64,000 nt of DNA, from positions 1-64,000 of the forward strand of contig NZ_KB894432.1 of NCBI RefSeq assembly GCF_000374445.1, read 5' to 3'. Below, piece by piece: positions 3,999-21,485 of the stretch; positions within the stretch are counted from its first letter, which is position 1, and each line of letters starts with the position of its first letter. The position numbers were made by a program, and so were the translations under genes. Source of the stretch: Actinokineospora enzanensis DSM 44649. GTDB lineage: Bacteria > Actinomycetota > Actinomycetes > Mycobacteriales > Pseudonocardiaceae. Below the pieces are notes generated by a model, which was given only the letters and a program-made list of their open reading frames with translations, was not told the origin of the DNA and did no database searches.

Positions 3999-4019
3999 TC
4001 CGACTGGCACGAAAGAGAA

Positions 4020-4054
4020 ATCGGCGGCGCGGGGTCGGTCCCCGCGCCGCCGAT
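4020..4054. terminator. Bidirectional terminator hairpin
   Basis: A perfect 15-bp stem (4020-4034 with 4040-4054) with a 5-base loop lies between the stops of the convergent LAL regulator and nitroreductase genes. It probably ends transcription from both sides. Confidence 0.75.
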
Positions 4055-4063
4055 CCCGTCGGG

Positions 4064-4681: not shown

Positions 4682-4750
4682 GGTGTGTTCCTTTCGATTC
4701 TTCTTCTCTGGGAATCCGGGGGCGAACATGGCGTGTTCGCGTGATGTGGC

Positions 4751-6190: not shown

Positions 6191-6449
6191 CCAGCTGCTC
6201 CCTAACCGTCGGGGCCCGCACCGCGCGTCGTCCGGCGGTGGGGCTCGGTGTCGATGTCGATGTTTCCGGCGGTGCGGGGTCGGCCACATCCCGTGTTCAA
6301 GGGATCATCGGCGGCGGGCGCGCCGGTTCCGGCGGCGCGGCGGGCCGCGGGCGGGCGCGCAACATCCCGCAAAGCCGGGACGACGCGGCGGGGCCCGCCG
6401 GCCAAAGCTGGAGAGGTTCAGTCTTCCGATCTCTGCCGGAGGTGTCGCT

Positions 6450-7016: not shown

Positions 7017-7022
7017 GCCCGG

Positions 7023-7069
7023 GACACCGAGGGGCCCGACCGAGTCGTTCGGTCGGGCCCCTCGGTGTC
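7023..7069. terminator. Strong intrinsic terminator between convergent genes
   Basis: A perfect 21-bp inverted repeat (7023-7043 with 7049-7069) with a 5-base loop is followed on the plus strand by GTGTTTTTG at about 7079-7086. It separates the cupin gene from the convergent DAHP synthase operon. Confidence 0.85.
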
Positions 7070-7106
7070 TCTGGGGGGTGTTTTTGCGGAATTGCCCCGG
7101 ACTTGG

Positions 7107-8270
7107 TCAGAGGCAGCGGTCGATGAGCTCGATGCCCTGGGCCCGGGTCAATCGCGGGTCGCAGAGCGAGGTGTACCGGGTGGCCAGGTCGGCCTCGGAC
7201 CCGACCGGGCCGCCGAGGCACTCGGTCACGTCATCGCCCGCGGTCTCCAGGTGCAGCCCGCCCGCGGGCACGCCCTGGCGCGCCAGCACCCGGTGGAACG
7301 CGGCGGCCTCCGCGACCAGGGCGTCGAGGTGCCGGGTCTTGACGCCTGTCGAGGTGGTGATCGTGTTGCCGTGCATGGGATCGCACAGCCACACCACCGG
7401 GTGCCCGGCCCGGCGCACCGCGGACACGATGCACGGCAGCGCGTCCTCGACCCGGTCCCGGCCCATGCGCGAGATCAGCACCAGGCGTCCCGGCTCGCGG
7501 TCGGGGTCGAGCAGCCCGCACAGCCGCACGACCTCCTCCGGCGGCGCGGTCGGTCCGACCTTGCACCCGACCGGGTTGCGCACGGACGCCAGCAGCCGCA
7601 CGTGCGCGTGGTCGGGCTGCCGGGTGCGCTCGCCGATCCACGGCAGGTGCGTCGAGGCGAGGTAGGGGCCGGTGTCGCCGTCCCGCAGCAGGGCGGACTC
7701 GTAGTCGAGGACCAGTGCCTCGTGGCTCGACCAGGGTCCCCAGTGGCCGGTCCGACGCCGGTTCAGCACGTCCAGCACCCGGCCTGCCGCCTCGTAGGCC
7801 CAGAGCATGCGGCGCGGGTCGTGCTGGCGCGCCGCCCGGGTGGGCACCTCGGAGTTCACCAGGTGCCCGCGGAAGGACTGGATGGTCCGGTCCCCGTGTC
7901 GCTCCGTGGGCTTGGACCGGGGCTTGGCGAACTGGCCGCCCAACCGGCCGATCCGCAGCACCGGGACGTCCGTGCGCTCGTGCAGTCGATCGGCCAGGGC
8001 GTCGACCACGTCGAGTCGGGCGCCGACGTGCTCGGCGGTGCATTCGTAGAAGCTCTCGGCGCAATCGCCTGCCTGGATGACCCGAGCCTGACCCGTGGCC
8101 ACCCGCGCCAATGCCTCACGCAATGCTTCGAGGTCGGCTGGGTCGATCAACGGGTCTGCTCGCTCCAGCGTTCGGCGCGCGTCGGCGTAGGCGGGATGGG
8201 CCCGCCACAGCGGTTGTTGCGCGGCGGGCGCGGCCGCCCAGGTGGCGGCGGTGGCCAGTGCTCCGCTCAT
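7107..8270 (-). CDS. Class II 3-deoxy-D-arabino-heptulosonate-7-phosphate (DAHP) synthase
   Basis: The 387-residue product is a class II (plant/PhzC-type) DAHP synthase, which condenses phosphoenolpyruvate with erythrose 4-phosphate at the entry to the shikimate pathway. Diagnostic motifs are VIQAGDCAESF, RIGRLGGQFAKPRS, WSSHEALVLDYE, NPVGCKVGP, LISRMGRDRVEDALP, WLCDPMHGNT and GLHLETAGDDVTE; the metal-binding Cys, His, Glu and Asp positions look intact. Its ATG at 8270 overlaps the preceding stop as ATGA, so it is translationally coupled to the gene upstream. As the last gene of the operon with the PhzE-like enzyme, it probably boosts chorismate supply for the metabolite, as phzC does in phenazine clusters. 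Confidence 0.93.
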   Translation of the reverse strand: MSGALATAATWAAAPAAQQPLWRAHPAYADARRTLERADPLIDPADLEALREALARVATGQARVIQAGDCAESFYECTAEHVGARLDVVDALADRLHERTDVPVLRIGRLGGQFAKPRSKPTERHGDRTIQSFRGHLVNSEVPTRAARQHDPRRMLWAYEAAGRVLDVLNRRRTGHWGPWSSHEALVLDYESALLRDGDTGPYLASTHLPWIGERTRQPDHAHVRLLASVRNPVGCKVGPTAPPEEVVRLCGLLDPDREPGRLVLISRMGRDRVEDALPCIVSAVRRAGHPVVWLCDPMHGNTITTSTGVKTRHLDALVAEAAAFHRVLARQGVPAGGLHLETAGDDVTECLGGPVGSEADLATRYTSLCDPRLTRAQGIELIDRCL

Positions 8271-9367
8271 CGGTCGAACTCCTCGTCGGGCACCCGCGCG
8301 AGAGCGGCGTGCACGTGGGTCGATTTGTGGCGCAACAGGACCGGCGCGCCCTCGATGTGTTCCAGGCCCGAGTGGAAGCCGCCGTGCTGGTGGTCGGCCA
8401 GTGCCACGAGTGCGGTCCTGGCGAGGACCGACACGCCGTGATCGGTGCCGCCGGTGGCGCGCAGGGCCGAGCATGCCTGCAGCAGGTCGATCGCGTCGGC
8501 GGTCCGCTGGGTGCGGTACGGGTGGTAGCCCGGTCCGGTGATCGCGGGCCGGTCCCAGAACCCGCCGTGCACCGGGTCGTGCAGGCGGGTGGCCGCGAAC
8601 TCCAGCAGCGCCGACGCGGTGCCCAGGTGACCGCTGGTGCCCAGCAGCCGCCCGGCGTGCGCCAGGGCCAGCGCCACCCGGGCCAGCGGGCCGCACCGGG
8701 TCAGCGCCTCCGCCGCGAGCACGGTGCCGGGCGCCGGTCCGGCCATGGCCCGGCGCGCGGCCGCGGTGAGTTCGCGGGTGAGCGCGGGCAGCGGGTCGAT
8801 GTCCACATCGGACTCGCCGAGCATGTCGGCGGTGGCCAGCGCGCGGATCGCCGCGACGGTGGCCTGCCGGGACGGGGTGGGCACGGCCGCGTCCCGCCAG
8901 TCCGCGGTGAGCGCGGTGGGGAACACGCCGTCGCGGGTGGTGCTCAGGCAGCGGTTGAGCAGGTCCACCGCGCGGGCGCGCAGCCGGTCGTCGTCCTGGC
9001 GGTGCGCGCGGACCAGCAGCGCCGTCGCGGCGTGCACCTGGTAGCGGGTGGTGCGCAGGCGCTGGGCGCCGTGCGGGGTCCAGCCGCGGTCGGTGACCTC
9101 CAGGAAGCCCGCGTGGCCGTGCCGGTCGGCCAGCGCGTCCAGGCCGGCGGCGGCGGTCGCCAACTCGGCGGTCAGCCCTGGGTGGGCGGCCACGGCCAGC
9201 ACCGCGCTCGCCTGGTCGACCAGGCGGCGCTCGGTGCCCAGCGGGCGGGCGCCGGTGGGGTCGGTGGCGGCGTGCGCGCCGCCGCGGTCGGGGTCGAGCA
9301 GGTGGGTCACGAGGAAGTCCCGTGCCGCGCGCGGCGCCCGGGTCCTCGGTAAGGAAACTGCGGTCAC
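8267..9367 (-). CDS. (alpha/alpha)6-barrel protein of the N-acylglucosamine 2-epimerase-like superfamily, role unknown
   Basis: This 366-residue protein has the helical-repeat look of the AGE/cellobiose epimerase superfamily, with internal segments such as DPVHGGFWD and DHQHGGFHSG spaced like the inner helices of a six-hairpin toroid. Known members isomerise or epimerise sugars, or are hydrolase- or lyase-like; I cannot assign this one. The GTG at 9367 overlaps the PhzE-like stop as GTGA, and its own stop overlaps the DAHP synthase start as ATGA, so it is translated in lockstep with two shikimate-derived biosynthesis genes. Codon 6 is TTA (9350-9352), rare in such genomes. An AGE-like gene at this position in a phz-type operon is unusual. 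Confidence 0.75.
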   Translation of the reverse strand: MTAVSLPRTRAPRAARDFLVTHLLDPDRGGAHAATDPTGARPLGTERRLVDQASAVLAVAAHPGLTAELATAAAGLDALADRHGHAGFLEVTDRGWTPHGAQRLRTTRYQVHAATALLVRAHRQDDDRLRARAVDLLNRCLSTTRDGVFPTALTADWRDAAVPTPSRQATVAAIRALATADMLGESDVDIDPLPALTRELTAAARRAMAGPAPGTVLAAEALTRCGPLARVALALAHAGRLLGTSGHLGTASALLEFAATRLHDPVHGGFWDRPAITGPGYHPYRTQRTADAIDLLQACSALRATGGTDHGVSVLARTALVALADHQHGGFHSGLEHIEGAPVLLRHKSTHVHAALARVPDEEFDR

Positions 9368-11250
9368 GTCGTCCTCCGTCGTCCGCGGGTGGTCGTGCCG
9401 AGCGCGGTCCCCAGCAGGTCGCCGAGGATCGCCGGGCCGTCGCGGGTCAGCACCGACTCGGGGTGGAACTGCACCGAGGCGAACCCCGGGCCGCGCAGCG
9501 CGTGCACCTGCCCGGTCCGCTCGTCCCGGCTCACCGCCACCGGGCCGTCCCTGGTCGGGAACGCCGGGTCCGGGCACACAGCCGTGAAGCTGTTGTAGAA
9601 GCCGACGGACTCCCGTCGGCCGAACAGATCGATCTCGCGTTGCGTGCCCTGGTTGGGCACGGTTCTCCGACGCACCGACAGCCCCAACACCGAGGAGAGC
9701 ACCTGGTGTCCCAGGCACACCGCGAGCATCGGGGTCCGGGCGATCAGCGCGTGACGCACGATCCGGCGCAGCGCGGCGATCTTCGGGTCCTGCCCGTCCC
9801 CGGGATCACCCGGGCCGGGGCCGACCACGACGAACCCGGCGTGGTCCAGGTCGCCCGGGTCGCGGTACGGCCGCACCTCGACCTCCGCGCCCAGCGCGGT
9901 CAGCTGGTGGGCCAGCATGGCGGTGAACGTGTCCTCCGCGTCCACGATCACCCCTCGCGTGCCGCGCAGCACGGGCGTGGTCGCGGTGTTCGTGAGCCAG
10001 AACCGCGCCAGTGTGGTGTTCCGCTCCGCCAACGCCGTCCGGACCTCGGGGCGCGCGCCCACCGGAGCCACCGCGTGGGCCGGTCGCGGGGCCAGCCCAC
10101 CCCGGAACGCGGCCAGCAGCCCCTCCGCCTTGGCCGCCGTCTCCGCGGCCTCCGACTCCGGGCGCGAGCCGCGGACCAGGGTCGCGCCCAGGCCGATGCG
10201 CAGCCGCCCGCGGTCGATGTCGGCGGTGCGGATCAGGATCGCCGAGTCCAGCGTGCGCTCGCCGGTGGCGTCCCGGCCGATCAGCGCCGCGACCCCGCTG
10301 TAGTAGCCGCGGCCTGTCGGCTCGTGCCGGGCGATGACCCGACACGCGTTCTCCAACGGACTGCCGGTCACGGTCGGGGCGAACATGGTCTCCCGTAGGA
10401 GTTCCCGAACGTCTGCCGCGCACTTGCCCTCGATGAGGTACTCGGTGTGCGCCACCCGGGCCATCTCCTTCAGGTACGGCCCATGCGCGCGCCCGCCCTC
10501 GGGGCAGACCCGCGCCATCATCTTCAGTTCCTCGTCGACCACCATCGACAGCTCGTCCGCTTCCTTGCGGTCGGCCAGGAACTCCAACACCCCGTCCAGC
10601 TCCGGGCGCCCGCCCGGGTACCGGTAGGTCCCACTGATCGGGTTCATGACCGCCACCCCGGACTCCAGGCTGACATGCCGCTCCGGGCTCGCCCCCAGGA
10701 ACATCCGAGACCCCAGCCGCACCAGGAACACCCAGTGCGCCCCGCTCTCGCCGCGGAGCAACCGGGCGAACACCGCGAGCGCGGCGGCGGGGGAGAAGTC
10801 CGGGAGCTCCGCGGTGAAATCCCGGCGGATCACGAAGTTCGCCCCCGCGCCCCGGCCGATCTCGTCGGCGAGCACTCCGCGCACGATGTCCGCGTAGGTC
10901 GGGTCATCCGTGGCGAACCCGGCGTTCGCCAGCTCGACCGGCATGTCCGGGATCAGTCGCAGCACGTCCGCGAGCCCGGCGCAGGACTGCTCGCGCACGC
11001 TCAGCGCCAGGATCGGCGCGCCGTCGTCGCGGCAGTCGAACCCGCGCTCGGTGATCTGCCGGAACGGGATCAGCGCGAGCAGCTCCTGCCGGGGCACCCC
11101 GCTCGCCGCGTCGTCGGCCAGCGGCAGGTCCGCCAGGAGATCCACAGTGGACTCCGTGCCGACCAGCACGTCCACCGTCTCGTGCCCGGCTCGGTACAAC
11201 AGCGCGAACGCCGCGGGCGGGTCGGCCAGCAGCGCGCCAAGGTCCGTCAT
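9364..11250 (-). CDS. phzE: PhzE-like 2-amino-2-deoxyisochorismate (ADIC) synthase, fused synthase and amidotransferase
   Basis: A 628-residue single chain. The N-terminal two thirds is a chorismate-utilising domain (PISGTYRYPGG, PTVTGSPLENACRVI, and the late GLGATLVRGSRPESEAAET). The C-terminal third is a class I glutamine amidotransferase with the nucleophile in AVCLGHQVLSS and the His-Glu pair in FHPESVLT. This fusion order is typical of PhzE, which converts chorismate plus glutamine to ADIC. TrpE/G-type anthranilate synthase fusions are the main alternative; the isochorismatase and SDR genes nearby favour ADIC, since they would carry it to 3-hydroxyanthranilate. It starts 27 bp after the hydroxylase gene stop and is coupled to the AGE-like gene downstream. 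Confidence 0.88.
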   Translation of the reverse strand: MTDLGALLADPPAAFALLYRAGHETVDVLVGTESTVDLLADLPLADDAASGVPRQELLALIPFRQITERGFDCRDDGAPILALSVREQSCAGLADVLRLIPDMPVELANAGFATDDPTYADIVRGVLADEIGRGAGANFVIRRDFTAELPDFSPAAALAVFARLLRGESGAHWVFLVRLGSRMFLGASPERHVSLESGVAVMNPISGTYRYPGGRPELDGVLEFLADRKEADELSMVVDEELKMMARVCPEGGRAHGPYLKEMARVAHTEYLIEGKCAADVRELLRETMFAPTVTGSPLENACRVIARHEPTGRGYYSGVAALIGRDATGERTLDSAILIRTADIDRGRLRIGLGATLVRGSRPESEAAETAAKAEGLLAAFRGGLAPRPAHAVAPVGARPEVRTALAERNTTLARFWLTNTATTPVLRGTRGVIVDAEDTFTAMLAHQLTALGAEVEVRPYRDPGDLDHAGFVVVGPGPGDPGDGQDPKIAALRRIVRHALIARTPMLAVCLGHQVLSSVLGLSVRRRTVPNQGTQREIDLFGRRESVGFYNSFTAVCPDPAFPTRDGPVAVSRDERTGQVHALRGPGFASVQFHPESVLTRDGPAILGDLLGTALGTTTRGRRRTT

Positions 11251-11277
11251 CGTCCTCCCCCTCCACCGGCGGCCGGG

Positions 11278-12885
11278 TCACCGGCCGCACACCAGCTCCA
11301 GCACCGCGTCCCAGTCGGCGGGCACACCCTCACCCCGCCACGCCACGTGCTGGTCCGGGCGGACCAGCACCAGCCCGTGCCCCCACACCGCGCGCACGTC
11401 CGGGTCGTCCACCACCAGGTGGTCCACCGGCACGCCCATCCCGGCGGCCCGCTTGGCCAGGTCCGCGCCCAGGTCGCGGCCGGTCAGGTCGACCAGCGTC
11501 AGCCCGGTCCCGAACCGGTCGAACAGCGCCGTCCCGTCCGGCAGCGGCACCGCGGGCGCGCGCCCGCCCGGCCAGGGTGTGGGCGTGATCCGGTCCCAGT
11601 GCCAGGCGGGCGCCGGGCCGTCCTCGTGCGCCACCACCGGCGAGCAGGCGTACCGGTATCCGAAGTGGACACCCGGGTTGTCCACCTGGGACGCCTCGCG
11701 GGCGAGCAGGCCGCCGAGCTGCTCGCGGGTCGCGCCGTCGGCGGCCAGCCGGGTGTAGCGGCGCCACACCTCCAGCAGGTCGGCCGACATCTCCCGGTTG
11801 AACAGCGCCACCGGGCGGCGCTCGGCCTCGTAGGAGTCCAGCAGCCGCGGCCCGCCCCAGCCGTTGACCACCGCGGCCAGCTTCCAGCCCAGGTCGACGC
11901 CGTCGGCGATGCCGGTGTTCGCGCCGTGCCCGCCGAACGGGTAGAACTGGTGCGCCGAGTCGCCTGCCAGGAACACCGACCCGCGCCGGTACCGGGCGGC
12001 CACCGCGAGCGCGCCGCGCCACTGCCCGACGCTGAGCACCTCGTCCACGGCGAAGTCCACGCCCAGCTTGTCCCGCACGACCGCCATCGGGTCGCCCGCG
12101 AACGGCTCGTCCTCGGGCACCTGGAACGACGCGGTCCACACCGCGCCCTCGTCCCGGGACACCAGGGTCAGGCCGCGGCTGCCGATCGTGACGAAGGCCC
12201 GGCCGTGTGCCCGGAGCACCGGGTCGGACGAGCGGAAGTACACCGAGCAGCGGCTGCTGCCCTGACCCGAGGACACCAGCGGGATGTCGAGGCAACCGCG
12301 CACCACGCTGCTCGCGCCGTCGCAGCCGACCAGGAACCGGGCCCGCAGCGTGTGCCGGGACGCGGTCTCCGCGCACAGCAGTGTGGCGGTGATGCCGCCG
12401 ACGTCCTCGAACAGCCCGGTGAATGTCCAGCCCTCGCGCACCTCGACCAGCGGGTGCGCGCGGACCGCCCGGCGCAGTGTCTCCTCCAGTACCGTGCCCT
12501 GGATCCGCTGGTACACCTCGACCGGCGCGGACCCGTCGCGCACGCCCGCCGCCCGCGCGGCCAGCTCGCGCGGCGACGGGTACGACCAGACCGCGACCGG
12601 CGGCTCGGCCAGGCCGGTGGTCCAGTGGAAGTCGGCGCCGTGTCCGCCGTCCACCCCGCCCGCGCGGACTTGGTCGACCAGGCCGAACCGGCGCAGCAGC
12701 TCCATGCTGCGGCCGTTGATGAAGTCCATCTTCGGGAACACCGGCGGCGCCGTCGACCGGTCCACGACCACGCTGGGCACCCCGTGCCGGGCCAGCTCCA
12801 GCGCGACCACGCAGCCGACCGGACCGGCGCCGACCACCAGCACCCGGCCCCCGGCCGGGTTTCGCTCACGCGATTGTTCTCTCAC
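11278..12885 (-). CDS. FAD-dependent aromatic hydroxylase (group A flavoprotein monooxygenase, PgaE/MhpA-like)
   Basis: A 535-residue class A flavin monooxygenase. It shows the Rossmann dinucleotide motif VVGAGPVGCVVALELARHG near the N terminus, the DG motif VGCDGASSVVRG near the middle, the GD motif FLAGDSAHQFYPFGGHGANT, and a C-terminal thioredoxin-like extension typical of the larger phenol and polyketide hydroxylases. It would hydroxylate an aromatic ring using NAD(P)H and O2. The GTG at 12885 is chosen because GGAG lies about 8 bases upstream; the longer ORF to 12957 lacks a ribosome site. First gene of the leftward biosynthetic operon, it may act on an aminohydroxybenzoate or on the assembled product. 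Confidence 0.88.
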   Translation of the reverse strand: MREQSRERNPAGGRVLVVGAGPVGCVVALELARHGVPSVVVDRSTAPPVFPKMDFINGRSMELLRRFGLVDQVRAGGVDGGHGADFHWTTGLAEPPVAVWSYPSPRELAARAAGVRDGSAPVEVYQRIQGTVLEETLRRAVRAHPLVEVREGWTFTGLFEDVGGITATLLCAETASRHTLRARFLVGCDGASSVVRGCLDIPLVSSGQGSSRCSVYFRSSDPVLRAHGRAFVTIGSRGLTLVSRDEGAVWTASFQVPEDEPFAGDPMAVVRDKLGVDFAVDEVLSVGQWRGALAVAARYRRGSVFLAGDSAHQFYPFGGHGANTGIADGVDLGWKLAAVVNGWGGPRLLDSYEAERRPVALFNREMSADLLEVWRRYTRLAADGATREQLGGLLAREASQVDNPGVHFGYRYACSPVVAHEDGPAPAWHWDRITPTPWPGGRAPAVPLPDGTALFDRFGTGLTLVDLTGRDLGADLAKRAAGMGVPVDHLVVDDPDVRAVWGHGLVLVRPDQHVAWRGEGVPADWDAVLELVCGR

Positions 12886-13280
12886 CGGCAGGCTCCTCGT
12901 CCCCCGTCGGAATTCCGATGTGACGATCCTGCCGACCGTTGCCCGCGCCGGTATCACGCTTCCACGGGATCCTGTCCCGCGTTAATGCCCTACGCGGTTT
13001 CCCGGTGCCCGTGTTCTTTTACTCACGAGTCGTCCTCGAAATGCACGGCCGACCCGGGGAATCCGTCCGGTTGCTCCTTCCGGTCCGGGTTGGACGGTCG
13101 GTGGACCACCCGATGGTGTCACCCGATCGGCGCACGACGATCCGCCATCCGGCCTGGCGTGCGCAAGATGGCGTGAACGGGTGATGTCCCCCGTTCACCC
13201 GTCAAGCAGCCTTGCCGCATCGCTTCACGAGGCGGACTCCGGCTCGTCCGGATCAACCGATGATGGGGATGGGGCTTCGG
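12886..13280. promoter_or_regulatory. Divergent control region of the two biosynthetic operons
   Basis: About 395 bp separate the leftward hydroxylase-phzE operon from the rightward aspartokinase operon, so both promoters must lie here. The region is slightly less GC-rich than the genes. No confident -10/-35 pair was found. A 9-bp inverted repeat with an 8-base spacer (13173-13181 with 13190-13198; arm GTGAACGGG) is a candidate operator about 80 bases before the aspartokinase start. Confidence 0.6.
13173..13198. promoter_or_regulatory. Inverted repeat, candidate operator
   Basis: GTGAACGGG at 13173-13181 is a perfect reverse complement of 13190-13198, separated by 8 bases. The size and position, in a divergent biosynthetic promoter region, suit a dimeric regulator. 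There is no T tract and no stop codon nearby, so a terminator is less likely. Confidence 0.4.
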
Positions 13281-14579
13281 ATGGTCACCGACGTTCTGGT
13301 GCAGAAATACGGGGGCAGCTCGCTGTCCACACTCGACCGGGTGCGCGGGGTCGCCCGGCGGGTCGCCGCCGCGCACACCGGCGGCAGGCCCACCGTGGTC
13401 GTCGTCTCCGCCCGGGGCGACACCACGGACGCGCTGATCGGCGAGGCGGCCGCGCTCGGCACCGCCCCGGACGCCCGCGAGCTCGACCAGCTGCTGGCCA
13501 CCGGCGAGTGCGCCAGCGCGGCGCTGCTGGCCATCGGCCTGCGCGGGCTCGGCGTCCCGGCGGTGTCGCTGACCGGCAGGCAGGCGGGAATCCGGGTCGC
13601 GGGCCGTCACGGCGCGGGCCGCATCGACGAGATAGACACCACCCGGCTCGAACGGGTCCTGGCAGGCGGCTCGGTCGCCGTGGTCGCCGGGTTCCAGGGC
13701 ACCGTCGGCACCTACGGTGCCGACGACGTCGATGACGCCGATGACGTCGTCACGCTGGGTCGCGGTGGCTCGGACACCACGGCGGTCGCGCTGGCGGCCG
13801 CGATCGGCGCCCGCGACTGCGAGATCTACACCGATGTCGACGGTATCTACACCGCCGATCCGAGAATTGTGCCGACCGCGCGAAAAATTCCGTTCGTCCG
13901 CCCGGACGTGATGGCGGAAATGGCCTTCGCGGGTGCCCGGGTACTGCATTCCCGGTCGGTCGAGCTGGCCGCCATGGCGGGCGTGCCGGTGCACGTCCGC
14001 GCATCAGTCGGGGATCAATCGGGAACCATTGTCGCTCCACGGGGGAGTAATCCGATGCTGGAAACCACCGGTGCGGTAGTCGCCGTCACCCACGACACCG
14101 ATGTCGCCCGCGTGCTGGTGCGGTCCCGCGGCGGGACCGACCTGGCCGCGGAGGTACTGGACATCCTGGCCCGGCACTGCGTGCCGGTGGACCTGGTGGC
14201 CAGGTCCGGGCCGGACGAGGACGAGTTCCGGATGGGCTTCACCATCCGGCGCAGCGACGTGCCCGAGGTGCGCGCCGCCCTGGAGGCCGCGGCGGGGGCG
14301 CACGGCGGCCAGGTGCGGGTGGACACCGCCGTGGGCAAGGTGTCGCTGATCGGGATGGGGCTGCTCAACCGCCCCGAGTACGTGGCCAGGATGGCCGCCG
14401 CGCTGGCCCGCGCGGGCATCGCGACCAGCTGGGTGTCCACCTCCCAGCTGCGTGCCTCGGTGACCGTGCACGAGGGGAACGTGGCCGACTCGGTGGTGCT
14501 GCTGCACCGGGAGTTCGGCCTGGAACAGACCGAGTCCGCCGAGCCGGTGGCCGACCTGGCCATGTCGGCGGGCAGTTGA
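13281..14579 (+). CDS. Aspartokinase (single chain with C-terminal ACT domains)
   Basis: The 432-residue product begins with the kinase signature VQKYGGSSLSTLDRVRG, contains GRGGSDTTAVALAAAIGA and the CEIYTDVDGIYTADPRIV segment, and ends in two ACT regulatory repeats (VGKVSLIGMGL and STSQLRASVTVHE). It phosphorylates aspartate on the way to aspartate semialdehyde, the substrate of the GriI-like aldolase encoded next. The stretch that in Corynebacterium LysC holds residues mediating lysine/threonine feedback is poorly conserved here, hinting at relaxed feedback (inference). The ATG at 13281 puts the kinase signature at the usual distance; in-frame ATGs lie just upstream. First gene of the rightward operon, 12 bp before griI. 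Confidence 0.9.
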   Translation: MVTDVLVQKYGGSSLSTLDRVRGVARRVAAAHTGGRPTVVVVSARGDTTDALIGEAAALGTAPDARELDQLLATGECASAALLAIGLRGLGVPAVSLTGRQAGIRVAGRHGAGRIDEIDTTRLERVLAGGSVAVVAGFQGTVGTYGADDVDDADDVVTLGRGGSDTTAVALAAAIGARDCEIYTDVDGIYTADPRIVPTARKIPFVRPDVMAEMAFAGARVLHSRSVELAAMAGVPVHVRASVGDQSGTIVAPRGSNPMLETTGAVVAVTHDTDVARVLVRSRGGTDLAAEVLDILARHCVPVDLVARSGPDEDEFRMGFTIRRSDVPEVRAALEAAAGAHGGQVRVDTAVGKVSLIGMGLLNRPEYVARMAAALARAGIATSWVSTSQLRASVTVHEGNVADSVVLLHREFGLEQTESAEPVADLAMSAGS

Positions 14580-14591
14580 GGGGGGATCCGC

Positions 14592-15404
14592 ATGTCCGTC
14601 AACCATTTCGCCCGCGAATTAAGGCTGCGCAGGCTCTACCGGCACGGTGGCCAGGGGCTGCTGGTGGTGCCGCTGGACCACTCGATCAGTGATGGCCCGC
14701 TGCGCGGCACCGGCGCGCTGGACGCGCTCGTCGGCGGTCTCGCGGGCACCGGCGTGGACGCGATCGTGCTGCACAAGGGCAGCGTCCGACACGTCCGGCA
14801 CACCCGTTTCACCGCCATGTCGCTGATCATCCACCTCAGCGCGAGCACCGTGCACGCGCCGGACCCGGACGCGAAGTACCTGGTCAGCGGTGTGGACGAG
14901 GCGCTGCGGATGGGCGCGGACGCGGTCAGCGTGCACGTCAACCTCGGCTCGGCCGACGAGCGCGGGCAGATCCGCGACCTGGCCTCGGTGGCCGAGGTGT
15001 GCGACCGCTGGAACGTGCCGCTGCTGGCCATGATGTACCCGCGCGGCCCGCGCATCGCCAACCCGCGCGATCCGGAGCTGGTCGCGCACGCCGCCACGTT
15101 GGCCGCCGACCTGGGCGCCGACATCGTCAAGACCCCGTTCGTCGGCACCGCGGCGGAGATGGCCGACGTGGTGGCCAGCTGCCCGATCCCGCTGATCGTG
15201 GCGGGCGGCGCGCGGATGGCCACCGACGCCGAGGTGCTGGCCTACGTGGACGAGGCGATGCGCGGCGGGGCCAGCGGGGTGGCCATGGGCCGCAACATCT
15301 TCGAGGCCGCCGACCCGGGCGGGCTGGCCCGCCGGATCGCCCGGCTGGTGCACTCCGCGGCCGAGCGCGGTCGGCTCGAACCGGTCGTCACCACGGCCAG
15401 CTGA
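14592..15404 (+). CDS. griI: GriI-like 2-amino-3,7-dideoxy-D-threo-hept-6-ulosonate-type synthase (DhnA aldolase)
   Basis: A 270-residue DhnA-type class I aldolase of the GriI/MJ0400 group. Visible motifs are LLVVPLDHSISDGPLRG, VDAIVLHKGSVR, MMYPRGPRI, a Schiff-base type DIVKTPFVG, and GGARMATDAEVLAYVDEAM. GriI of the grixazone pathway joins aspartate semialdehyde and dihydroxyacetone phosphate to a C7 amino sugar-like acid that GriH aromatises to 3-amino-4-hydroxybenzoate. With aspartokinase before it and GriH after it, the assignment is firm at pathway level. Codon 10 is TTA (14619-14621), suggesting control by the leucyl tRNA BldA. The ribosome site GGGGGA is 6 bases before the ATG. Confidence 0.92.
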   Translation: MSVNHFARELRLRRLYRHGGQGLLVVPLDHSISDGPLRGTGALDALVGGLAGTGVDAIVLHKGSVRHVRHTRFTAMSLIIHLSASTVHAPDPDAKYLVSGVDEALRMGADAVSVHVNLGSADERGQIRDLASVAEVCDRWNVPLLAMMYPRGPRIANPRDPELVAHAATLAADLGADIVKTPFVGTAAEMADVVASCPIPLIVAGGARMATDAEVLAYVDEAMRGGASGVAMGRNIFEAADPGGLARRIARLVHSAAERGRLEPVVTTAS

Positions 15405-15447
15405 ACTTCGGCGAACCGTTTTCCCAACCGAGACAAGGAGACTTGGC

Positions 15448-16551
15448 GTGAAACTGTGCTGGATCGACGTGCGCGCGATCACCACCGGCAAGCAGGCCGT
15501 CCTGGAGGAGGCACTGCACCAGCGCGTGGACGGGATCGTCGCGGCGGACCCGGCGGACCTGGTCGGGTTACCGCCCACGGTCAAGAAGGTCCTGTTCCCG
15601 AACACCGGCGCGGCGGTGCCCGCCGATCTGTCCGATGTGGACGTCGTGGTCACCCGGCCGGGCACCGCGGGCGTCGCCGAGGCGGCCGCGGCCAACCCGG
15701 GCGTGGAGTTCGGCCGGTTCGTGGAGATCACCGACCGGCCCACCCTGGACGAGGCCTGCGTGGCCGCCCGGGACGAGCGGTGGAGCCTGCTGCTGTTCCG
15801 CGACCCCACCAAGATCCCGCTGGAGATCGTGCTGGCCGCCGCCGACGGCGCCACCGGCAGCATCATCACCGCGGTGGCCGACGTGGCGGAGGCCGAGATC
15901 GTGTTCGGCGTGCTGGAGCACGGCTCGGACGGTGTGCTGATGGCGCCTGCCAAGGTCGGCGACGCCACCGCGCTCAAGGCCGCCGCGCTGGCCCGTCCGT
16001 CCACTCTGGACCTGGTCGAGCTGCGGGTCACCGGGACCACGCACGTCGGCATGGGCGAACGGGCCTGTGTGGACACCTGCTCGCACTTCCGCGAGGACGA
16101 GGGCATCCTGGTCGGCTCGCACTCCAAGGGCATGATCCTGTGCGTCAGCGAGACGCACCCGCTGCCCTACATGCCCACCCGCCCGTTCCGGGTCAACGCG
16201 GGCGCCATCCACTCCTACACCGTCTCCGGCGAGGGCCGCACCAACTACCTCAGCGAGCTCACCACCGGCGGCAAGGTGCTGGCGGTGGACGTCAAGGGGC
16301 AGACCCGGCTGGTCACCGTGGGCCGGGTGAAGATCGAGTCCCGGCCGCTGCTGTCCATCGACGCGGTCGCCGACGACGGGCGCACCGTCAACCTGATCCT
16401 GCAGGACGACTGGCACGTGCGGGTGCTCGGCCCGGGTGGCTCGGTGCTCAACAGCACCGAGCTCAAGCCCGGCGACGTGGTGCTCGGCTACCTGCCCACC
16501 GCCGACCGGCACGTCGGCTACCCGATCGACGAGTTCTGCCTGGAGAAGTGA
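15448..16551 (+). CDS. griH: GriH-like 3-amino-4-hydroxybenzoate synthase (DHQ synthase II family)
   Basis: A 367-residue member of the AroB-prime/dehydroquinate synthase II family. Conserved segments include SIITAVADVAEAEIVFGVLE, VGSHSKGMILCVSETHPLPY, RPFRVNAGAIHSYTV and GRTNYLSELTTGGKVLAVD. In grixazone biosynthesis GriH converts the GriI product to 3-amino-4-hydroxybenzoic acid (3,4-AHBA); archaeal relatives make dehydroquinate. Co-occurrence with aspartokinase and griI favours 3,4-AHBA. GAGAC/AAGGAG lies just upstream of the GTG. Codon 41 is TTA (15568-15570). Its stop overlaps the amidohydrolase start as GTGA. Confidence 0.92.
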   Translation: MKLCWIDVRAITTGKQAVLEEALHQRVDGIVAADPADLVGLPPTVKKVLFPNTGAAVPADLSDVDVVVTRPGTAGVAEAAAANPGVEFGRFVEITDRPTLDEACVAARDERWSLLLFRDPTKIPLEIVLAAADGATGSIITAVADVAEAEIVFGVLEHGSDGVLMAPAKVGDATALKAAALARPSTLDLVELRVTGTTHVGMGERACVDTCSHFREDEGILVGSHSKGMILCVSETHPLPYMPTRPFRVNAGAIHSYTVSGEGRTNYLSELTTGGKVLAVDVKGQTRLVTVGRVKIESRPLLSIDAVADDGRTVNLILQDDWHVRVLGPGGSVLNSTELKPGDVVLGYLPTADRHVGYPIDEFCLEK

Positions 16552-17312
16552 GCACCGTGCGGCCGGTACTGGATTTCCACGCCCGGCTCGCGCCCCGGCC
16601 CGGCGCGGCCGACGACCTGCTGTCCACCATGGACGCCTGCGGGATCGGCCGTGCCGGGGTGGCGGCGGGCGGGGTGGTCGGGCTGGACGCGCTGTCGCGC
16701 CTGCTCGTCGTCGGCGGACACGTCACCGACGACGCCGACAACGACGCCGTGCTCGCCGCGTGCTCGGCCGCCGGAGGGCGGTTGGTGCCGTACTTCTTCG
16801 CCAACCCGCACCGGGGGATCGAGCACTACACGACGCGCGCGGCGGAGTTCCGGGCCGTGGAGATCTCGCCCGCCGTCCACGGCGTCCCGCTCAACGACTC
16901 GCGGGTGCACGCGCTCGTGGAGGTGGCGCGCGTGCACCGGCACCCCGTCTACACCGTCTGCCTGTCGCGGCCGGGCGCGGGCGTGGCCGACCTGGTCGCG
17001 CTGGCGCGGGCACACCGCGAGGTCACCTTCGTGCTCGGCCACCTCGGCGTGGGGCTGATCGACACCTACGCGGTCGACCTGGTCGCGGCGAGCCCCAACG
17101 TGCTGGTGGAGACGTCCGGCGCGTTCGGTTTCACGGTGCGGGTCGCGCTGGAACGGCTCGGCCCGGACCGGCTGCTGTTCGCCGCCGAGCACCCGTTGCA
17201 GCACCCGTCGGTCGAGCTGGCCAAGTACGCCGCGCTCGACCTCGCCGCCGACACCTGGGAACGGATCGCCTGGCACAACGCCACCCGATTGCTCGGAGAG
17301 GATTTGCCATGA
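16548..17312 (+). CDS. Divergent amidohydrolase-2 family protein, candidate heterocycle-forming enzyme
   Basis: A 254-residue TIM-barrel protein of the amidohydrolase-2 (ACMSD-like) family. The canonical N-terminal HxH metal motif is degenerate (DFHAR, residues 9-13, second His replaced by Arg). The barrel His in FVLGHLG is present, but the final Asp position reads AAEHPLQHP. Such divergent members occur in benzoxazole clusters (nataxazole NatAM, A33853 type), where they promote ring closure from an ester or amide of two aminohydroxybenzoates. The GTG at 16548 overlaps the griH stop as GTGA; GTG at 16557 is an alternative with better spacing from GGAG. It is coupled by ATGA to the ligase gene, supporting a joint role. 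Confidence 0.8.
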   Translation: MSTVRPVLDFHARLAPRPGAADDLLSTMDACGIGRAGVAAGGVVGLDALSRLLVVGGHVTDDADNDAVLAACSAAGGRLVPYFFANPHRGIEHYTTRAAEFRAVEISPAVHGVPLNDSRVHALVEVARVHRHPVYTVCLSRPGAGVADLVALARAHREVTFVLGHLGVGLIDTYAVDLVAASPNVLVETSGAFGFTVRVALERLGPDRLLFAAEHPLQHPSVELAKYAALDLAADTWERIAWHNATRLLGEDLP

Positions 17313-18628
17313 CCCTCGAACTGACCCGTGCGGCGCTGCCGCAGATCGGGCAGTGGGCCAGCACCGACGAATTATCCGACCTGCAGGACCGGCAGCTGCC
17401 CGAGCTGCTCCGATGGGCGGCCCGCTCGCCGTTCTACCGGGCCCGGCTCGGCGCCACGCACCCGAGCACCCGCGCGGAGTTCGAGTCGCTGGCCCCGACC
17501 ACCAAGCAGGACCTGCGGGACAACTACCCGTTCGGCATGCTCGCGGTGGACCGGGCGGACCTGGCCACCTATCACGAGTCGAGCGGCACGGCGGGCTCGC
17601 CGACGCCCTCGTATTACACCGAGCGGGACTGGACCGACCTGGCCGAGCGGTACGCCCGCAAGTGGATCGGCATCACGCCAGCGGACGTGTTCCTGGTCCG
17701 CACCCCGTATGCGCTCATGATCACCGGTCACCTGGCCCAGGCCGCCGCCCGGCTGCGCGGCGCTACCGTGGTGCCCGGCGACAACCGCTCGCTGGCCATG
17801 CCGTACTCGCGGGTCGTGCGCGTGCTGCACGACCTGGGTGTCACGCTGACCTGGTCGATGCCCACCGAGACGTTGATCTGGGCCGCCGCCGCGCGCGCCG
17901 CCGGGCACGAGCCCGGCCGCGACTTCCCGGCCCTGCGCGCGTTGTTCGTCGGCGGCGAGCCGCTCAGCCCCGCCCGCCGCGCGCGGATCAGCGAGATCTG
18001 GGGCGTGCCGGTGATCGAGGAGTACGGCTCCACCGAGACCGGCAGCCTGGCGGGGGAGTGCCCGCACGGCCGCCTGCACCTGTGGGCCGACCGGGCGATC
18101 TTCGAGGTGTACCGGCCGGACACCGGCGACCTCGTGCGCGAGGGCATCGGCCGACTGGTCGTGACCCCGTTGTACCGGGAGGCCATGCCCTTGCTCCGCT
18201 ACGACCTGGCGGACGACGTCGAGGTCAGCTACGCGGATTGCCCCTGCGGTTGGCACCTGCCCACGGTCCGGGTATTCGGACGTGCCGCCTTCGGTCACTC
18301 GGTGGGCTCCGCGAAGATCACTCAGAACAGGCTGGAGGAGCTGGTGTTCGGCCTGCCCGCGTCGTTCGGCGTGCTGTTCTGGCGTGCCCGCGCCGAACGC
18401 GACCGGCTGCGCGTGCAGATCGAGGTCGCCGCCGGGCACCGCGCCGCCGCGACCGCCGCGCTCACCGCCGCGATCCACGTCGAATACGGGGTCCGCGCCG
18501 CGGTCGAGGGTGTCGAACCGGGGACGTTGGTGCCCGAGCGGGTGCTGACCGCGGTGCACGACGTGGTCAAGCCGCGCAGCCTGTTCGGCGCCGACGAGGA
18601 CTGGGGCAAGGCCCTGCTCTACCACTGA
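17309..18628 (+). CDS. Phenylacetate-CoA ligase-like adenylate-forming enzyme
   Basis: A 439-residue PaaK-family acyl-adenylating enzyme. It shows the P-loop-like HESSGTAGSPTPSYYTERDW, a middle FVGGEPLSPARRARISE, the adenine-binding EEYGSTETG, and the late RLVVTPLYREAMPLLRYDLAD leading to a C-terminal AMP-binding lid domain. It should activate an aromatic carboxylate with ATP as acyl-AMP and perhaps acyl-CoA. Between an amidohydrolase and two aminohydroxybenzoate routes it is the obvious coupling enzyme, comparable to NatL2/BomJ-type ligases of benzoxazole pathways. Its ATG overlaps the amidohydrolase stop (ATGA). Codon 22 is TTA (17372-17374). Free CoA versus direct transfer to the partner amine or phenol cannot be told from sequence. 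Confidence 0.88.
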   Translation: MTLELTRAALPQIGQWASTDELSDLQDRQLPELLRWAARSPFYRARLGATHPSTRAEFESLAPTTKQDLRDNYPFGMLAVDRADLATYHESSGTAGSPTPSYYTERDWTDLAERYARKWIGITPADVFLVRTPYALMITGHLAQAAARLRGATVVPGDNRSLAMPYSRVVRVLHDLGVTLTWSMPTETLIWAAAARAAGHEPGRDFPALRALFVGGEPLSPARRARISEIWGVPVIEEYGSTETGSLAGECPHGRLHLWADRAIFEVYRPDTGDLVREGIGRLVVTPLYREAMPLLRYDLADDVEVSYADCPCGWHLPTVRVFGRAAFGHSVGSAKITQNRLEELVFGLPASFGVLFWRARAERDRLRVQIEVAAGHRAAATAALTAAIHVEYGVRAAVEGVEPGTLVPERVLTAVHDVVKPRSLFGADEDWGKALLYH

Positions 18629-18653
18629 CCAGCAGCGACACTCGGAGGACCAG

Positions 18654-19841
18654 ATGAGGGAACCATTGCGCGTCGCCGTGGTGGGCGCGGGCATCGCGGG
18701 GCTCACGATCGCCGCCGCGCTGCGCGCCAACGGGTTGCGCTGCCACGTGTTCGAGCAGACCGGGCACCTGCGCGAGATCGGTGCGGGAATCCAGCTCTCG
18801 CCCAACGGCACCCGCCCGTTACTGCGCCTGGGCCTGGGCCGTCGCCTCGACCAGGTGGCGGTCCGCCCGGACGCGATCGAGGTGCGCGATTGGCAGGGGG
18901 ACCGGTTGGTGGCGCGTACCGAGCTGGGTGCTCGGTGTGTCACGGAGTATGGCGCGCCGTACTACACGGTGCATCGCGCGGACTTGCACCAGGCATTGCT
19001 CGAACTATTGCCCGAGGGCATCCTGCACCTTGGCCGCCGCTGCGTGGGCGTCGTCGAACAGCGCGACGAGGTGGAGCTGAAGTTCGACGACGGCTCCACG
19101 GCCACCGCGGACCTGGTCGTCGGCGCGGACGGCATCCGCTCGGTGGTCCGTTCGCAGCTGGTCGACGACGAGCCCAGGTTCTCCGGGCAGAGCGTGTTCC
19201 GAGCGCTGGTGCCCGCCGACGCGGTCCCGGCCCTGGCGGGTCCACCGCGCGTCCGCATCTGGATGGGCCCCGGCAGACACTGCGTCTGCTACCCGGTCTC
19301 CGGCGGCACCCGCCTCAGCATCGCCGCCAGCGCCCCGGCCGACGACTGGCGCGTCGAGTCCTGGTCCGCCCGCGGCTCCGTGCCGGACCTCCTGGCCGCC
19401 TACCCCGACTGGCACCCCACCGTGCTGGCCCTGCTCGCCGCGCCGACCGAGGTGACCCGCTGGGCCCTGCACGACCGCCCCCCGGTCACCCGCTGGAGCA
19501 GCGAACGCACCACCCTCATCGGCGACGCCGCCCACCCCATGCTGCCCTTCGGCGCGCAGGGCGCGGCCCAGGGCATCGAGGACGCCATCTCCCTCGCCGC
19601 CCACCTGAGAGGCGTGCCCGCGCGCGGAGTCCCGGAGGCCATACGCAAGTACGAGGCGGTCCGTCGCCTGCGCACCGAACGCGTCTACGAGTTCATCCGC
19701 GACAACGAACGAGAACACCACGTCGCAGACCCCACCCATCTCCCCACCCGGGACACCCGCATGCGCGGCGAATGGTCCCTGCGCGCCCGCTCCTGGCTCT
19801 TCGGCCACGACGCCGCGGAGCTGACCACTGAGTCGCGTTGA
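18654..19841 (+). CDS. FAD-dependent monooxygenase (salicylate hydroxylase-like)
   Basis: A 395-residue class A flavin monooxygenase of the NahG/6-hydroxynicotinate hydroxylase type. It has the FAD motif [19 protein letters not shown] at residues about 7-25, the [13 protein letters not shown] motif, and [20 protein letters not shown] late in the chain, without the thioredoxin-like tail of the other hydroxylase in this cluster. Members hydroxylate ortho to a phenol, often with decarboxylation. CGGAGGA sits 6 bases before the ATG. Codon 56 is TTA (18819-18821). Twenty-five bases separate it from the ligase gene, so it is in the same operon. Possible substrate: 3-hydroxyanthranilate, 3,4-AHBA or the coupled product. 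Confidence 0.88.
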
Positions 19842-20045
19842 GTCGCCGTAGTCCAGGGGTGCGGAAGAGGTGTGGATGGACTGTTGTGGGTGAGTCGGCC
19901 GGGTCGGTGGTCGACGAAGTTGCTTCCGCGTCGGAGTCGTTGCGCCGCCAGGCATGAAGGCGAACGAGTCCCAGAACCGCGGATGGCATGGCGGGGTTGC
20001 GACCCCGATGGGGGACGGCAGTAGGAAACCGAATGAGGAGGGGTA

Positions 20046-20819
20046 ATGCAGGACCTCGGTTTAGGGGGAAAGGTCGCGCTGGTCACCGGGGCGGCGCAGG
20101 GGATCGGGGCGGCGGTCGCGCGCGCGTTGGCCGCCAACGGGGCCGCGGTCGCGGCCGTCGATTCCAATGTGGACGGCCTCAAGGCGTTGGCGCGCGACGA
20201 GGACGCCGTCCGGGCGTACCCGGCGGACGTGCGGGACAGCGCCGCCGTGGACGCCGTCGTCGAGCAGGCCGAGCGCGAGCTGGGGGCGCTGGACATCCTG
20301 GTCAACGTCGCCGGTGTGCTGCGGATGGGGCCGGTGGTCGAGTTCGCCGACACCGACTGGAAGACCGTGTTCGACGTCAACACCAGCGGCGTCTTCCACG
20401 TCTCGCGCGCCGTCGCCCGGCGCATGGTCGCGCGCGGGACCGGCGCGATCGTCACCGTCGCGTCCAACGCGTCCGGGGTGCCGCGCATGCACATGGCCGC
20501 GTACGCCGCGTCCAAGGCCGCCTCGACCATGTTCACCAAGTGTCTCGGCCTGGAGCTGGCCGAGCACGGGATCCGGTGCAACATCGTGTCCCCTGGCTCG
20601 ACCGACACCGCCATGCAGCGTTCCATGTGGACGGATGAGAGCGGGCCGCGGCTGGTCGTCGCCGGTTCGCTTGAGGCTTACCGGTCGGGCATCCCGCTCG
20701 GTCGGATCGCCCAGCCCGGACACATCGCGGACGCCGTGCTGTTCCTGGTGTCGGACCGCGCGGGCCACATCACCCTGCACGACCTGTGCGTCGACGGCGG
20801 CGCCGCGCTCGGCGCCTGA
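20046..20819 (+). CDS. EntA/DhbA-like short-chain dehydrogenase (dihydro-hydroxyanthranilate dehydrogenase)
   Basis: A 257-residue classical [18 protein letters not shown] nucleotide-binding loop, VNVAGVL, catalytic Ser and the YAASK motif ([13 protein letters not shown]). The tail [20 protein letters not shown] and [17 protein letters not shown] is characteristic of 2,3-dihydro-2,3-dihydroxybenzoate dehydrogenases. In this context it should oxidise trans-2,3-dihydro-3-hydroxyanthranilate to 3-hydroxyanthranilate. The ribosome site GAGGAGGGG lies just before the ATG. Codon 6 is TTA (20061-20063). It follows a 204-bp gap after the hydroxylase gene that could hold a second promoter, and is 12 bp before the isochorismatase gene. 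Confidence 0.9.
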
Positions 20820-20831
20820 GGAGTGTCCACA

Positions 20832-21485
20832 ATGGCCATACAGCCGATAGACCCGTACCCGATGCCGGTCGAGGCCGACCTGCCCGCAGGCCGGGTGTCC
20901 TGGCGGCCCGACCCCCGGCGCGCCGTGCTGTTGGTGCACGACATGCAGCGCTACTTCGTCGCACCGTTCGACGCGGACCGGGAACCGCGCAGCACGTTGG
21001 TACGCAACCTGGTCCGGCTCCGCGCCGCCGCGATCGCCCTCGGCATCCCGGTGGTCTACACCGCGCAGCCGGGCGGCATGGACCCGGCCCAACGCGGCCT
21101 GCTGAACGACTTCTGGGGACCGGGCATGACCACCGCGCCCGCCGACCGTCGGATCATCGACGCGCTCACCCCGGGCCCGGCCGACGTGGTCCTGACCAAG
21201 TGGCGCTACAGCGCCTTCCACCGCAGCGACCTCGCCGACCGCCTCGCCACGTGGCACCGCGACCAACTCCTGATCACCGGTGTCTACGCGCACGTGGGCT
21301 GTCTGACCACCGCGGGCGACGCGTTCGCCCTTGACATCCGACCGTTCCTGCTCGCCGACGCCCTGGCCGACTTCTCCCGGGCCGACCACGACCAGGCCCT
21401 CACCCACGGCGCCCGCACCTGCGCCGCGGTCACCACCACCGCCCGCGCCCTGTCCGACCTCGGGGCGCACCGAGCGGCGGCCTAG
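20832..21485 (+). CDS. phzD: PhzD/EntB-type isochorismatase
   Basis: A 217-residue isochorismatase-fold hydrolase. It carries the catalytic Asp in LLVHDMQRYFV, the Lys in LTKWRYSAF and the signature GVYAHVGCLTTAGDAFALDI. PhzD hydrolyses ADIC to trans-2,3-dihydro-3-hydroxyanthranilate, and EntB-type enzymes act on isochorismate. With the PhzE-like synthase in the cluster and no isochorismate synthase seen, ADIC is the expected substrate. There is no C-terminal aryl carrier domain, unlike EntB. The ATG at 20832 has GAGGAG about 8 bases upstream; a GTG at 20823 overlaps that ribosome site and is less likely. It is the last gene of the rightward operon. Confidence 0.9.
   Translation: MAIQPIDPYPMPVEADLPAGRVSWRPDPRRAVLLVHDMQRYFVAPFDADREPRSTLVRNLVRLRAAAIALGIPVVYTAQPGGMDPAQRGLLNDFWGPGMTTAPADRRIIDALTPGPADVVLTKWRYSAFHRSDLADRLATWHRDQLLITGVYAHVGCLTTAGDAFALDIRPFLLADALADFSRADHDQALTHGARTCAAVTTTARALSDLGAHRAAA

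Follow-up and report, generated by a model that had tools for sequence, protein, structure and literature searches.

Does the left end of contig NZ_KB894432.1 of Actinokineospora enzanensis DSM 44649 encode the joining of two different aminohydroxybenzoates into one benzoxazole and, if so, with which enzymes? The window that we analysed is the first 64 kb of this contig (C30 in our numbering; the host genome counts 8.1 Mb in 87 contigs), and the genes in question lie around positions 7107-21485. We found a real and recurrent two-precursor cluster of the benzoxazole type, which probably joins its two precursors, 3-hydroxyanthranilate (3-HAA) and 3-amino-4-hydroxybenzoate (3,4-AHBA). On balance, we consider it probable that the product is a mixed (hetero-dimeric) benzoxazole of these acids, closed by a zinc-free cyclase, the amidohydrolase-like protein that we call AH. 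PhzE-, PhzD- and EntA-type enzymes yield 3-HAA, and GriI and GriH yield 3,4-AHBA; ligases of the NatL2 type form an unstable ester, which a condensing amidohydrolase closes to the ring.

All eleven enzymes named in the initial annotation were found where it had placed them, in matching families (open reading frame (ORF) calls with Pfam and NCBIfam scans). Its claim of two aminohydroxybenzoate routes in one cluster was borne out: the 3-HAA route is complete, with a PhzE carrying a glutaminase domain, a PhzD-type and an EntA-type enzyme, and so is the 3,4-AHBA cassette, in which a DhnA aldolase (GriI) adjoins a synthase resembling type II dehydroquinate synthase (GriH). The genes fall into two divergent groups: leftward run those for flavin monooxygenase 1, PhzE, a protein like N-acylglucosamine 2-epimerase (AGE) and 3-deoxy-D-arabino-heptulosonate 7-phosphate (DAHP) synthase, and rightward the other eight. 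The coordinates give four-base overlaps for GriH/amidohydrolase, amidohydrolase/ligase, PhzE/AGE-like and AGE-like/DAHP synthase, as in translationally coupled operons. The AGE-like gene is additional to the eleven of the initial annotation. With start codons chosen among candidate starts, the twelve genes are:

7107-8270, minus strand: class II DAHP synthase (PF01474, 434 bits)
8267-9367, minus strand: AGE-like protein (no Pfam match; weak similarity to cellobiose 2-epimerase)
9364-11250, minus strand: PhzE-like 2-amino-2-desoxyisochorismate (ADIC) synthase, chorismate-binding plus glutamine amidotransferase (PF00425 and PF00117)
11278-12957, minus strand: flavin monooxygenase 1, RebC/PRK06126-like (PF01494; PRK06126 435 bits, just below the cut-off of 445)
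13260-14579, plus strand: dedicated aspartokinase (PRK06635 389 bits, cut-off 376)
14592-15404, plus strand: GriI-type DhnA aldolase (PF01791; PRK07226 308 bits, cut-off 241; BagB/FevI model 396 bits)
15448-16551, plus strand: GriH-type 3,4-AHBA synthase (PF01959; BagC/FevH model 615 bits)
16548-17312, plus strand: AH, amidohydrolase-like protein of 254 amino acids (PF04909 66.4 bits, gathering cut-off 26.4)
17309-18628, plus strand: PaaK-like aryl ester ligase (590 bits to 6wuq and 6siw)
18654-19841, plus strand: flavin monooxygenase 2, like tropone 2-monooxygenase, decarboxylative vanillate hydroxylase and 3-hydroxybenzoate 6-monooxygenase
20046-20819, plus strand: EntA-type dehydrogenase (TIGR04316 366 bits, cut-off 300)
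20823-21485, plus strand: PhzD-type isochorismatase (PF00857)

The lack of a polyketide partner, also proposed at the outset, agrees with the scans, in which no polyketide synthase (PKS) or ketosynthase family matched among the 16 cluster genes scanned (these twelve and four more to the left, given below). The two flavin monooxygenase genes are present as claimed. The nearest solved relatives of the first (PF01494-type) are 4eip (215 bits) and RebC 2r0c (213 bits); the second reaches 280 bits to tropone 2-monooxygenase and also resembles decarboxylative hydroxylases of vanillate, 6-hydroxynicotinate and 4-hydroxybenzoate.

The initial annotation could name no standard cluster with exactly this gene set. 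The set is not a one-off: it recurs across actinobacteria, and 23 other loci pair the ligase with the amidohydrolase. Seven of these loci were reached through the amidohydrolase, 15 through the ligase and one (L136) by searching 394 genomes of the class with a model. The amidohydrolase was detected in 8 of 150 relatives at E 1e-20, own genome included, the other seven at 53-60% identity; for the ligase, the matches listed in contigs of named genomes amount to at least 80 loci, 15 at 58-74% identity and 65 at 35% or less. L137, the same locus as L020, was excluded from the 24 distinct members (window included). Genes were counted in a locus at E 1e-20, 38% identity and 35% of length; as the loci span 8.5-21.6 kb (four extended), the counts per locus are lower bounds. 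Because 15 loci were chosen by the ligase, only the seven found by the amidohydrolase alone can show whether the ligase accompanies it, and in all seven the two genes lie side by side.

Of the 23 loci, 22 have GriH and 22 GriI, 18 have flavin monooxygenase 2 and 17 EntA; PhzE, PhzD and flavin monooxygenase 1 each occur in 15, aspartokinase in 12 and DAHP synthase in 8. Two or all three of the 3-HAA genes are present in 16. In the locus lacking GriH, L020 (Phytoactinopolyspora), a GriH lies ~17 kb and a PhzE ~10 kb away. Related clusters were seen in Streptomycetaceae, Pseudonocardiaceae, Micromonosporaceae and Jiangellaceae, and the named hosts among the matches listed include Streptomyces, Actinacidiphila, Saccharomonospora, Phytoactinopolyspora, Dactylosporangium, Catenuloplanes, Symbioplanes and Actinoplanes. 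Parts of L027 and L028 appear to be frame-shifted or to run on; L028 was omitted from alignment A1, and L011, L017, L027 and L028 from A2, while all are in the residue tables. Among plasmid records, the amidohydrolase gave no protein match at E 1e-5 and the ligase none at E 1e-60; at the DNA level, four records matched fragments of the cluster, GriH in two cases and DAHP synthase in one, the fourth being unannotated.

How would the two acids be joined? The claim of a nataxazole-type pair of ligase and amidohydrolase stood for its ligase half: this enzyme is a relative of AjiA1 and NatL2 (6wuq, 6siw; 590 bits, full length, residues 9/10-438), and reaches 191 bits to 9s3l (ClxA by inference). 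An identity with BagE/FevW was rejected, the NF041217 model giving 584 bits against a cut-off of 800, which was passed in none of the 394 genomes sampled in the class.

We then compared the 24 distinct ligases, window included, at 19 residues of NatL2 (numbering from PMC7204872), of which Arg68, a Gln in our copy of the sequence, was set aside. The acceptor residues Thr128, Thr135, Arg156 and Trp178 and the structural zinc residues Cys248, His254, Cys308 and Cys310 are kept in 24/24; Lys418 of the C-terminal extension is kept in the window ligase and in 23 overall, and the donor residue Glu235 in 22. Positions 211-212 read Gly-Gly in 20 ligases, that of the window among them, and Ala-Gly or Val-Gly in the other four (Gly212 in all), versus Ala-Ala in NatL2, AjiA1 and the ligase of L141. 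Position 243 is Ser in 21 of the 24 versus Thr in NatL2. In ClxA, the matching residue Asn226 is described as contacting the para-hydroxyl of the 3,4-AHBA donor (PMC12519233); on account of this contact, we propose 3,4-AHBA as donor. The residue patterns suggest, without proving it, that 3,4-AHBA serves as donor and 3-HAA as acceptor.

L141, a nataxazole-like locus found by the ligase model, provides a contrast. It encodes an orthologue of NatAM (730 bits to 6sj0, PF01979), a 1862-residue protein that looks PKS-like by eye and the PhzE/EntA/PhzD trio, as in the window; no GriH or GriI was found in the 20 kb fetched. Thus, in these sequences, Ala-Ala appears to go with NatAM-type pathways (L141 and the published NatL2 and AjiA1) and AH mostly with Gly-Gly. 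In the ligase tree, from which ClxA was left out (end branch of 8.62), NatL2, AjiA1 and L141 fall among the AH-partnered ligases (fork 91/98 around 20 rows). Keeping the 24 AH-partnered ligases together costs 8.0 log-likelihood units with an approximately unbiased test value (p-AU) of 0.196, so that the alternative order of descent stands un-rejected despite the nested NatL2 group. The nataxazole ligase may, judging from this tree, have come out of the AH-partnered family and later swapped its partner for NatAM. The six related ligases without AH (L138-L143) lie outside the AH group or, for L141, with NatL2.

Two more groups of NatL2-like ligases (49-52%), L138, L139 and L140 on the one hand and L142 and L143 on the other, have altered pocket residues; these five loci gave no match to other cluster genes in the 20 kb fetched.

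Which protein would close the ring? Here, the amidohydrolase half of the claimed pair did not stand. AH matches Amidohydro_2 (PF04909) only, not Amidohydro_1 (PF01979), and no NCBIfam model. An identity with NatAM or BomN was rejected on size (254 residues versus ~490), family and replaced zinc ligands; hhalign of AH against the NatAM orthologue of L141 gave a probability of 0.3%, that is, no profile similarity. The AlphaFold2 (AF2) model of AH (pLDDT 93.6) is a TIM barrel, with Foldseek matches at E 1e-12 to Amidohydro_2 members. Its profile has 17 matches among solved structures of the PDB, mostly decarboxylase-like Amidohydro_2 proteins, the best being an uncharacterised amidohydrolase (E 3.5e-09); no entry named ClxD or PfxB is among these 17. 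Across the phylum, 36 of 396 genomes matched the AH profile at E 1e-15, AH itself at 3.2e-120 and the next best at 4.6e-28. We regarded the remaining matches as different Amidohydro_2 proteins and took them for an outgroup (29 loci, of which 26, with an ORF of 200-450 residues, were aligned).

NatAM is described as having two domains, with 494 residues traced and a zinc bound by His75, His77, His253 and Asp345, and its H290A substitution abolishes activity (PMC7204872). Where a NatAM-type zinc site has HxH, a beta-5 His and an Asp, the window AH has HxR, Val and Glu, and the metal ligands are replaced in 23 of the 24 distinct AH members. In each case in 23 of 24, the first His of HxH is kept and the second is Arg13, the beta-4 Lys has become Glu105, the beta-5 His137 has become Val or Ala and the beta-8 Asp has become Glu214. 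The beta-6 His165 is kept in all 24, as are Glu188, Gln218, Glu223 and Lys226. The 26 outgroup proteins have Lys105, Asp214 and His165 throughout, and His13 and His137 in 23 each, the rows L103, L105 and L110 having lost these two differently (to Asn). The exception among the AH members, L031, keeps HxH, Lys and His; its ligase is the most distant of all (58%), and the DNA fetched for it shows no 3-HAA genes. In the AF2 model, the AH positions sit in or just after strands 1, 4, 5 and 6, and residue 214 lies four residues past a short strand (209-210), the would-be strand 8. In the alignment, His165 and Glu214 fall on the beta-6 His and the beta-8 Asp of the 26 outgroup proteins, and His165 and the acid at 214 probably match His290 and Asp345 of NatAM. 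Since the ligands are replaced in a uniform way and further side chains are kept, the metal site appears to have been rebuilt rather than to have decayed.

Gene content, recurrence, family membership and residue patterns were observed directly; the use of precursors by the ligase, the donor/acceptor order, coupling, cyclisation, lack of metal, tailoring and product are what we infer from them, as follows. PhzE, the PhzD-type enzyme (ADIC to 2,3-dihydro-3-hydroxyanthranilate, DHHA) and the EntA-type enzyme (oxidation of DHHA to 3-HAA) would build 3-HAA from chorismate, whose supply the DAHP synthase of the cluster would boost, and aspartokinase, GriI and GriH would build 3,4-AHBA from aspartate semialdehyde and dihydroxyacetone phosphate. 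The NatL2-type ligase would adenylate one acid, most likely 3,4-AHBA, which would be attacked by the phenol of the other unit, most likely 3-HAA held by Arg156 and Thr135 (NatL2 numbering), giving an aryl ester with an ortho amine. AH would close this ester to the benzoxazole by attack of the amine and loss of water, and the core product would be 2-(3-amino-4-hydroxyphenyl)benzoxazole-4-carboxylate, C14H10N2O4, equal in mass to the homodimers of 3-HAA (m/z 271.0716) and of 3,4-AHBA (m/z 271.07). Unlike in NatAM, closure would be zinc-free, His165 and Glu214 acting as a proton-donating pair, as His290 and Asp345, while Arg13, in place of the zinc-ligand histidine, would hold the ester carbonyl. 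Both flavin monooxygenases, and perhaps the nitroreductase encoded further left, would tailor the product; given the likeness of flavin monooxygenase 2 to decarboxylative hydroxylases, oxidative decarboxylation of the carboxyl derived from 3,4-AHBA is one option. A transporter of the major facilitator superfamily (MFS) would export the product and a LuxR-type regulator would control the cluster. That these loci form a family of hetero-benzoxazole clusters with a separately recruited Amidohydro_2 cyclase without a zinc site, working by metal-free acid-base catalysis with Arg in place of zinc, seems to us quite possible, if short of probable.

Several observations weigh against the mixed benzoxazole with AH as cyclase. 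Coupling and cyclisation are deduced from sequence and not from chemistry, and the active site proposed for AH is placed by alignment and strand positions. In fold, AH is closest to decarboxylases (of the carboxyvanillate, resorcylate and ACMSD types) and to uncharacterised amidohydrolases rather than to cyclases. In NatL2, Glu235 binds the 3-hydroxyl of a 3-HAA donor (PMC7204872), and since it is kept, the donor could also be 3-HAA. In seven of the 23 loci (L012, L018, L021, L024, L029, L030 and L031), the fetched DNA shows at most one 3-HAA gene, which makes 3,4-AHBA the more constant precursor, and some members of the family may form homodimers or employ a different partner. All seven genomes encode one or more PhzE homologues, which in the three that could be placed lie on a different contig or 200 kb off; such homologues being common, their presence says little.

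The strongest alternative is that the pair couples two 3,4-AHBA units, as in closoxazole, and that 3-HAA enters later or separately, for instance as an amide or ester cap. It would account for GriH and GriI (22/23 each) being steadier partners than the 3-HAA genes (at least two in 16/23), PfxC and ClxA of the closoxazole pathways are described as coupling two 3,4-AHBA (PMC12118335, PMC12519233), and both Pfx ligases as able to attach a third unit (PMC12118335). However, the residues with which NatL2 holds its 3-HAA acceptor are kept in all 24 ligases, whereas, as far as described for ClxA, none of the acceptor-contacting residues is conserved there (PMC12519233), and we saw one ligase gene versus two in closoxazole clusters, a count limited by the contig edge. 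We judge this alternative rather unlikely for the window.

Another possibility is that AH is not a cyclase: the ligase would form a stable aryl ester or amide, as in bagremycin, and AH would be a binding or chaperone protein, a hydrolase of shunt products or a relative of the decarboxylases. Loss of metal ligands often signals lost activity, the best fold matches of AH are decarboxylases, and the word amidohydrolase does not occur in the accessible text of a paper on the BagE/FevW ligase cluster (PMC6692506). Yet many side chains of AH are kept in 23-24 of 24 members, so the protein has not decayed, and it stays with the ligase in 23/23 loci, the ligases without AH (L138-L143) lying apart as described above; we regard a role other than cyclisation as unlikely. 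Oxidative coupling of the two acids, both o-aminophenols, to a phenoxazinone (as in grixazone or carboxyexfoliazone) is very improbable: 3,4-AHBA clusters do give phenoxazinones, carboxyexfoliazone being reported among the ahbamycins (PMC10179220), but copper oxidase families have no match among the 16 genes scanned and the dedicated NatL2-type ligase would be left without a role.

The cluster very probably extends beyond 7107-21485, to four genes on its left:

213-902, plus strand: DsbA-like thiol oxidoreductase (Pfam DSBA 26.4 bits, cut-off 25.6; contig edge)
1167-3998, plus strand: LuxR-family regulator with AAA domain (AAA_16 and GerE)
4064-4729, minus strand: nitroreductase-family flavoenzyme, malonic semialdehyde reductase-like (Pfam Nitroreductase; PRK05365 258 bits, cut-off 152)
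4751-6190, minus strand: MFS exporter (MFS_1; start set inside the ORF 4751-6289)

In genome G032, of the same family, a cluster made up of L156 and L010 holds counterparts of 15 of the 16 window genes, namely MFS, DAHP synthase, LuxR, flavin monooxygenase 1, nitroreductase, PhzE, DsbA-like, aspartokinase, GriI, GriH, amidohydrolase, ligase, flavin monooxygenase 2, EntA and PhzD, which makes the genes at 213-6190 very probable members. Counterparts of the DsbA-like gene lie within the clusters of L010/L156 (70%) and L136 (63%), 2 of the 23 loci, and LuxR matches in 13; the nitroreductase (69% in G032) and the MFS gene (65% in G032) each have one in 1 of 23 by the thresholds of the locus comparison. 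The DsbA-like gene, whose product is presumably FrnE, is a probable accessory gene, and the MFS protein likely serves export or self-protection. As base 1 of the window is base 1 of the contig, additional cluster genes may lie further left. No PKS, ketosynthase or second ligase was seen by eye among the ORFs of G032 between MFS and PhzD, a view without family scan and through a filter on third-position GC content (GC3) that misses some genes.

The AGE-like gene has a single other counterpart (40-45%) among the 23 clusters compared, in G838 (L136/L157), which shares the order PhzE, AGE-like, DAHP synthase with the window. Among 100 genomes searched it was found in the window's own and in none of the 99 other relatives. 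The AF2 model of its product is poor (pLDDT 47, 2 sequences) and was not used for a fold search.

Three of the other loci deserve description. L018 (Streptomyces sp. CNH099) and L030 (S. aculeolatus), at 12500-18000, are sister clusters that keep EntA; no PhzD or PhzE was found in their fetched DNA, and PhzE homologues lie on other contigs. By eye, they show a symporter-like gene and, in L018, a second short-chain dehydrogenase/reductase. L031 (Streptomyces iconiensis, 4286-20007) contains aspartokinase, GriH, ligase, GriI and the amidohydrolase that keeps HxH, Lys and His, together with a 366-residue protein and flavin enzymes (by eye); it is possibly a closoxazole-like relative. In the window itself, positions 36292-61950 carry chemotaxis and flagellar genes, for CheA, a methyl-accepting chemotaxis protein, CheB, a CheY-like receiver, CheX, FlhA, FlhB and MotB (Pfam), so that this actinomycete is probably motile.

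The papers cited here describe the closure of benzoxazoles by NatAM, with zinc, and by ClxD/PfxB. If our reading is true, a recurrent cyclase family without zinc means that the metal is dispensable for cyclodehydration, and AH would be a small catalyst for it. At least 17 clusters (the window and 16 of the 23 other loci) have both precursor routes, and their product class would be predictable; a NatL2-type ligase need not imply a NatAM partner.

How does the window compare with known systems? In the open-access literature, subscription papers being mostly outside our scope, we recognised no described cluster with both 3-HAA and 3,4-AHBA genes. The microechmycin cluster (mich, Micromonospora) shares the 3-HAA genes and a BomJ/BomN pair of ligase and amidohydrolase, but its product is a 3-HAA dimer, its enzyme is of the BomN type and the accessible description mentions no 3,4-AHBA genes (PMC9864271). 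With bagremycin and ferroverdin (BagE/FevW, BagB, BagC), the window shares 3,4-AHBA genes and a related ester-forming ligase; its proteins nevertheless remain below the curated cut-offs of these models (ligase 584/800, GriI 396/500, GriH 615/750), no tyrosine ammonia-lyase is among the window genes scanned, and the amidohydrolase and 3-HAA genes are added. The closoxazole clusters (ClxA-E; PfxA-E) are described with a GriI/GriH-type pair, a PaaK-like ligase and a non-NatAM amidohydrolase, ClxD/PfxB (PMC12118335), which we set beside AH by description and not by sequence; the window ligase, in contrast, is far from ClxA (191 bits versus 590 to NatL2), one ligase was seen instead of two, and 3-HAA genes are added. 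Finally, the nataxazole/AJI9561/A33853 type shares the NatL2-type ligase and the PhzE/EntA/PhzD supply of 3-HAA, as in L141. Unlike this type, the window shows no NatAM and no PKS or ketosynthase; it has Gly-Gly instead of Ala-Ala in its ligase, an AH family without the zinc site, and GriH, GriI and aspartokinase in addition.

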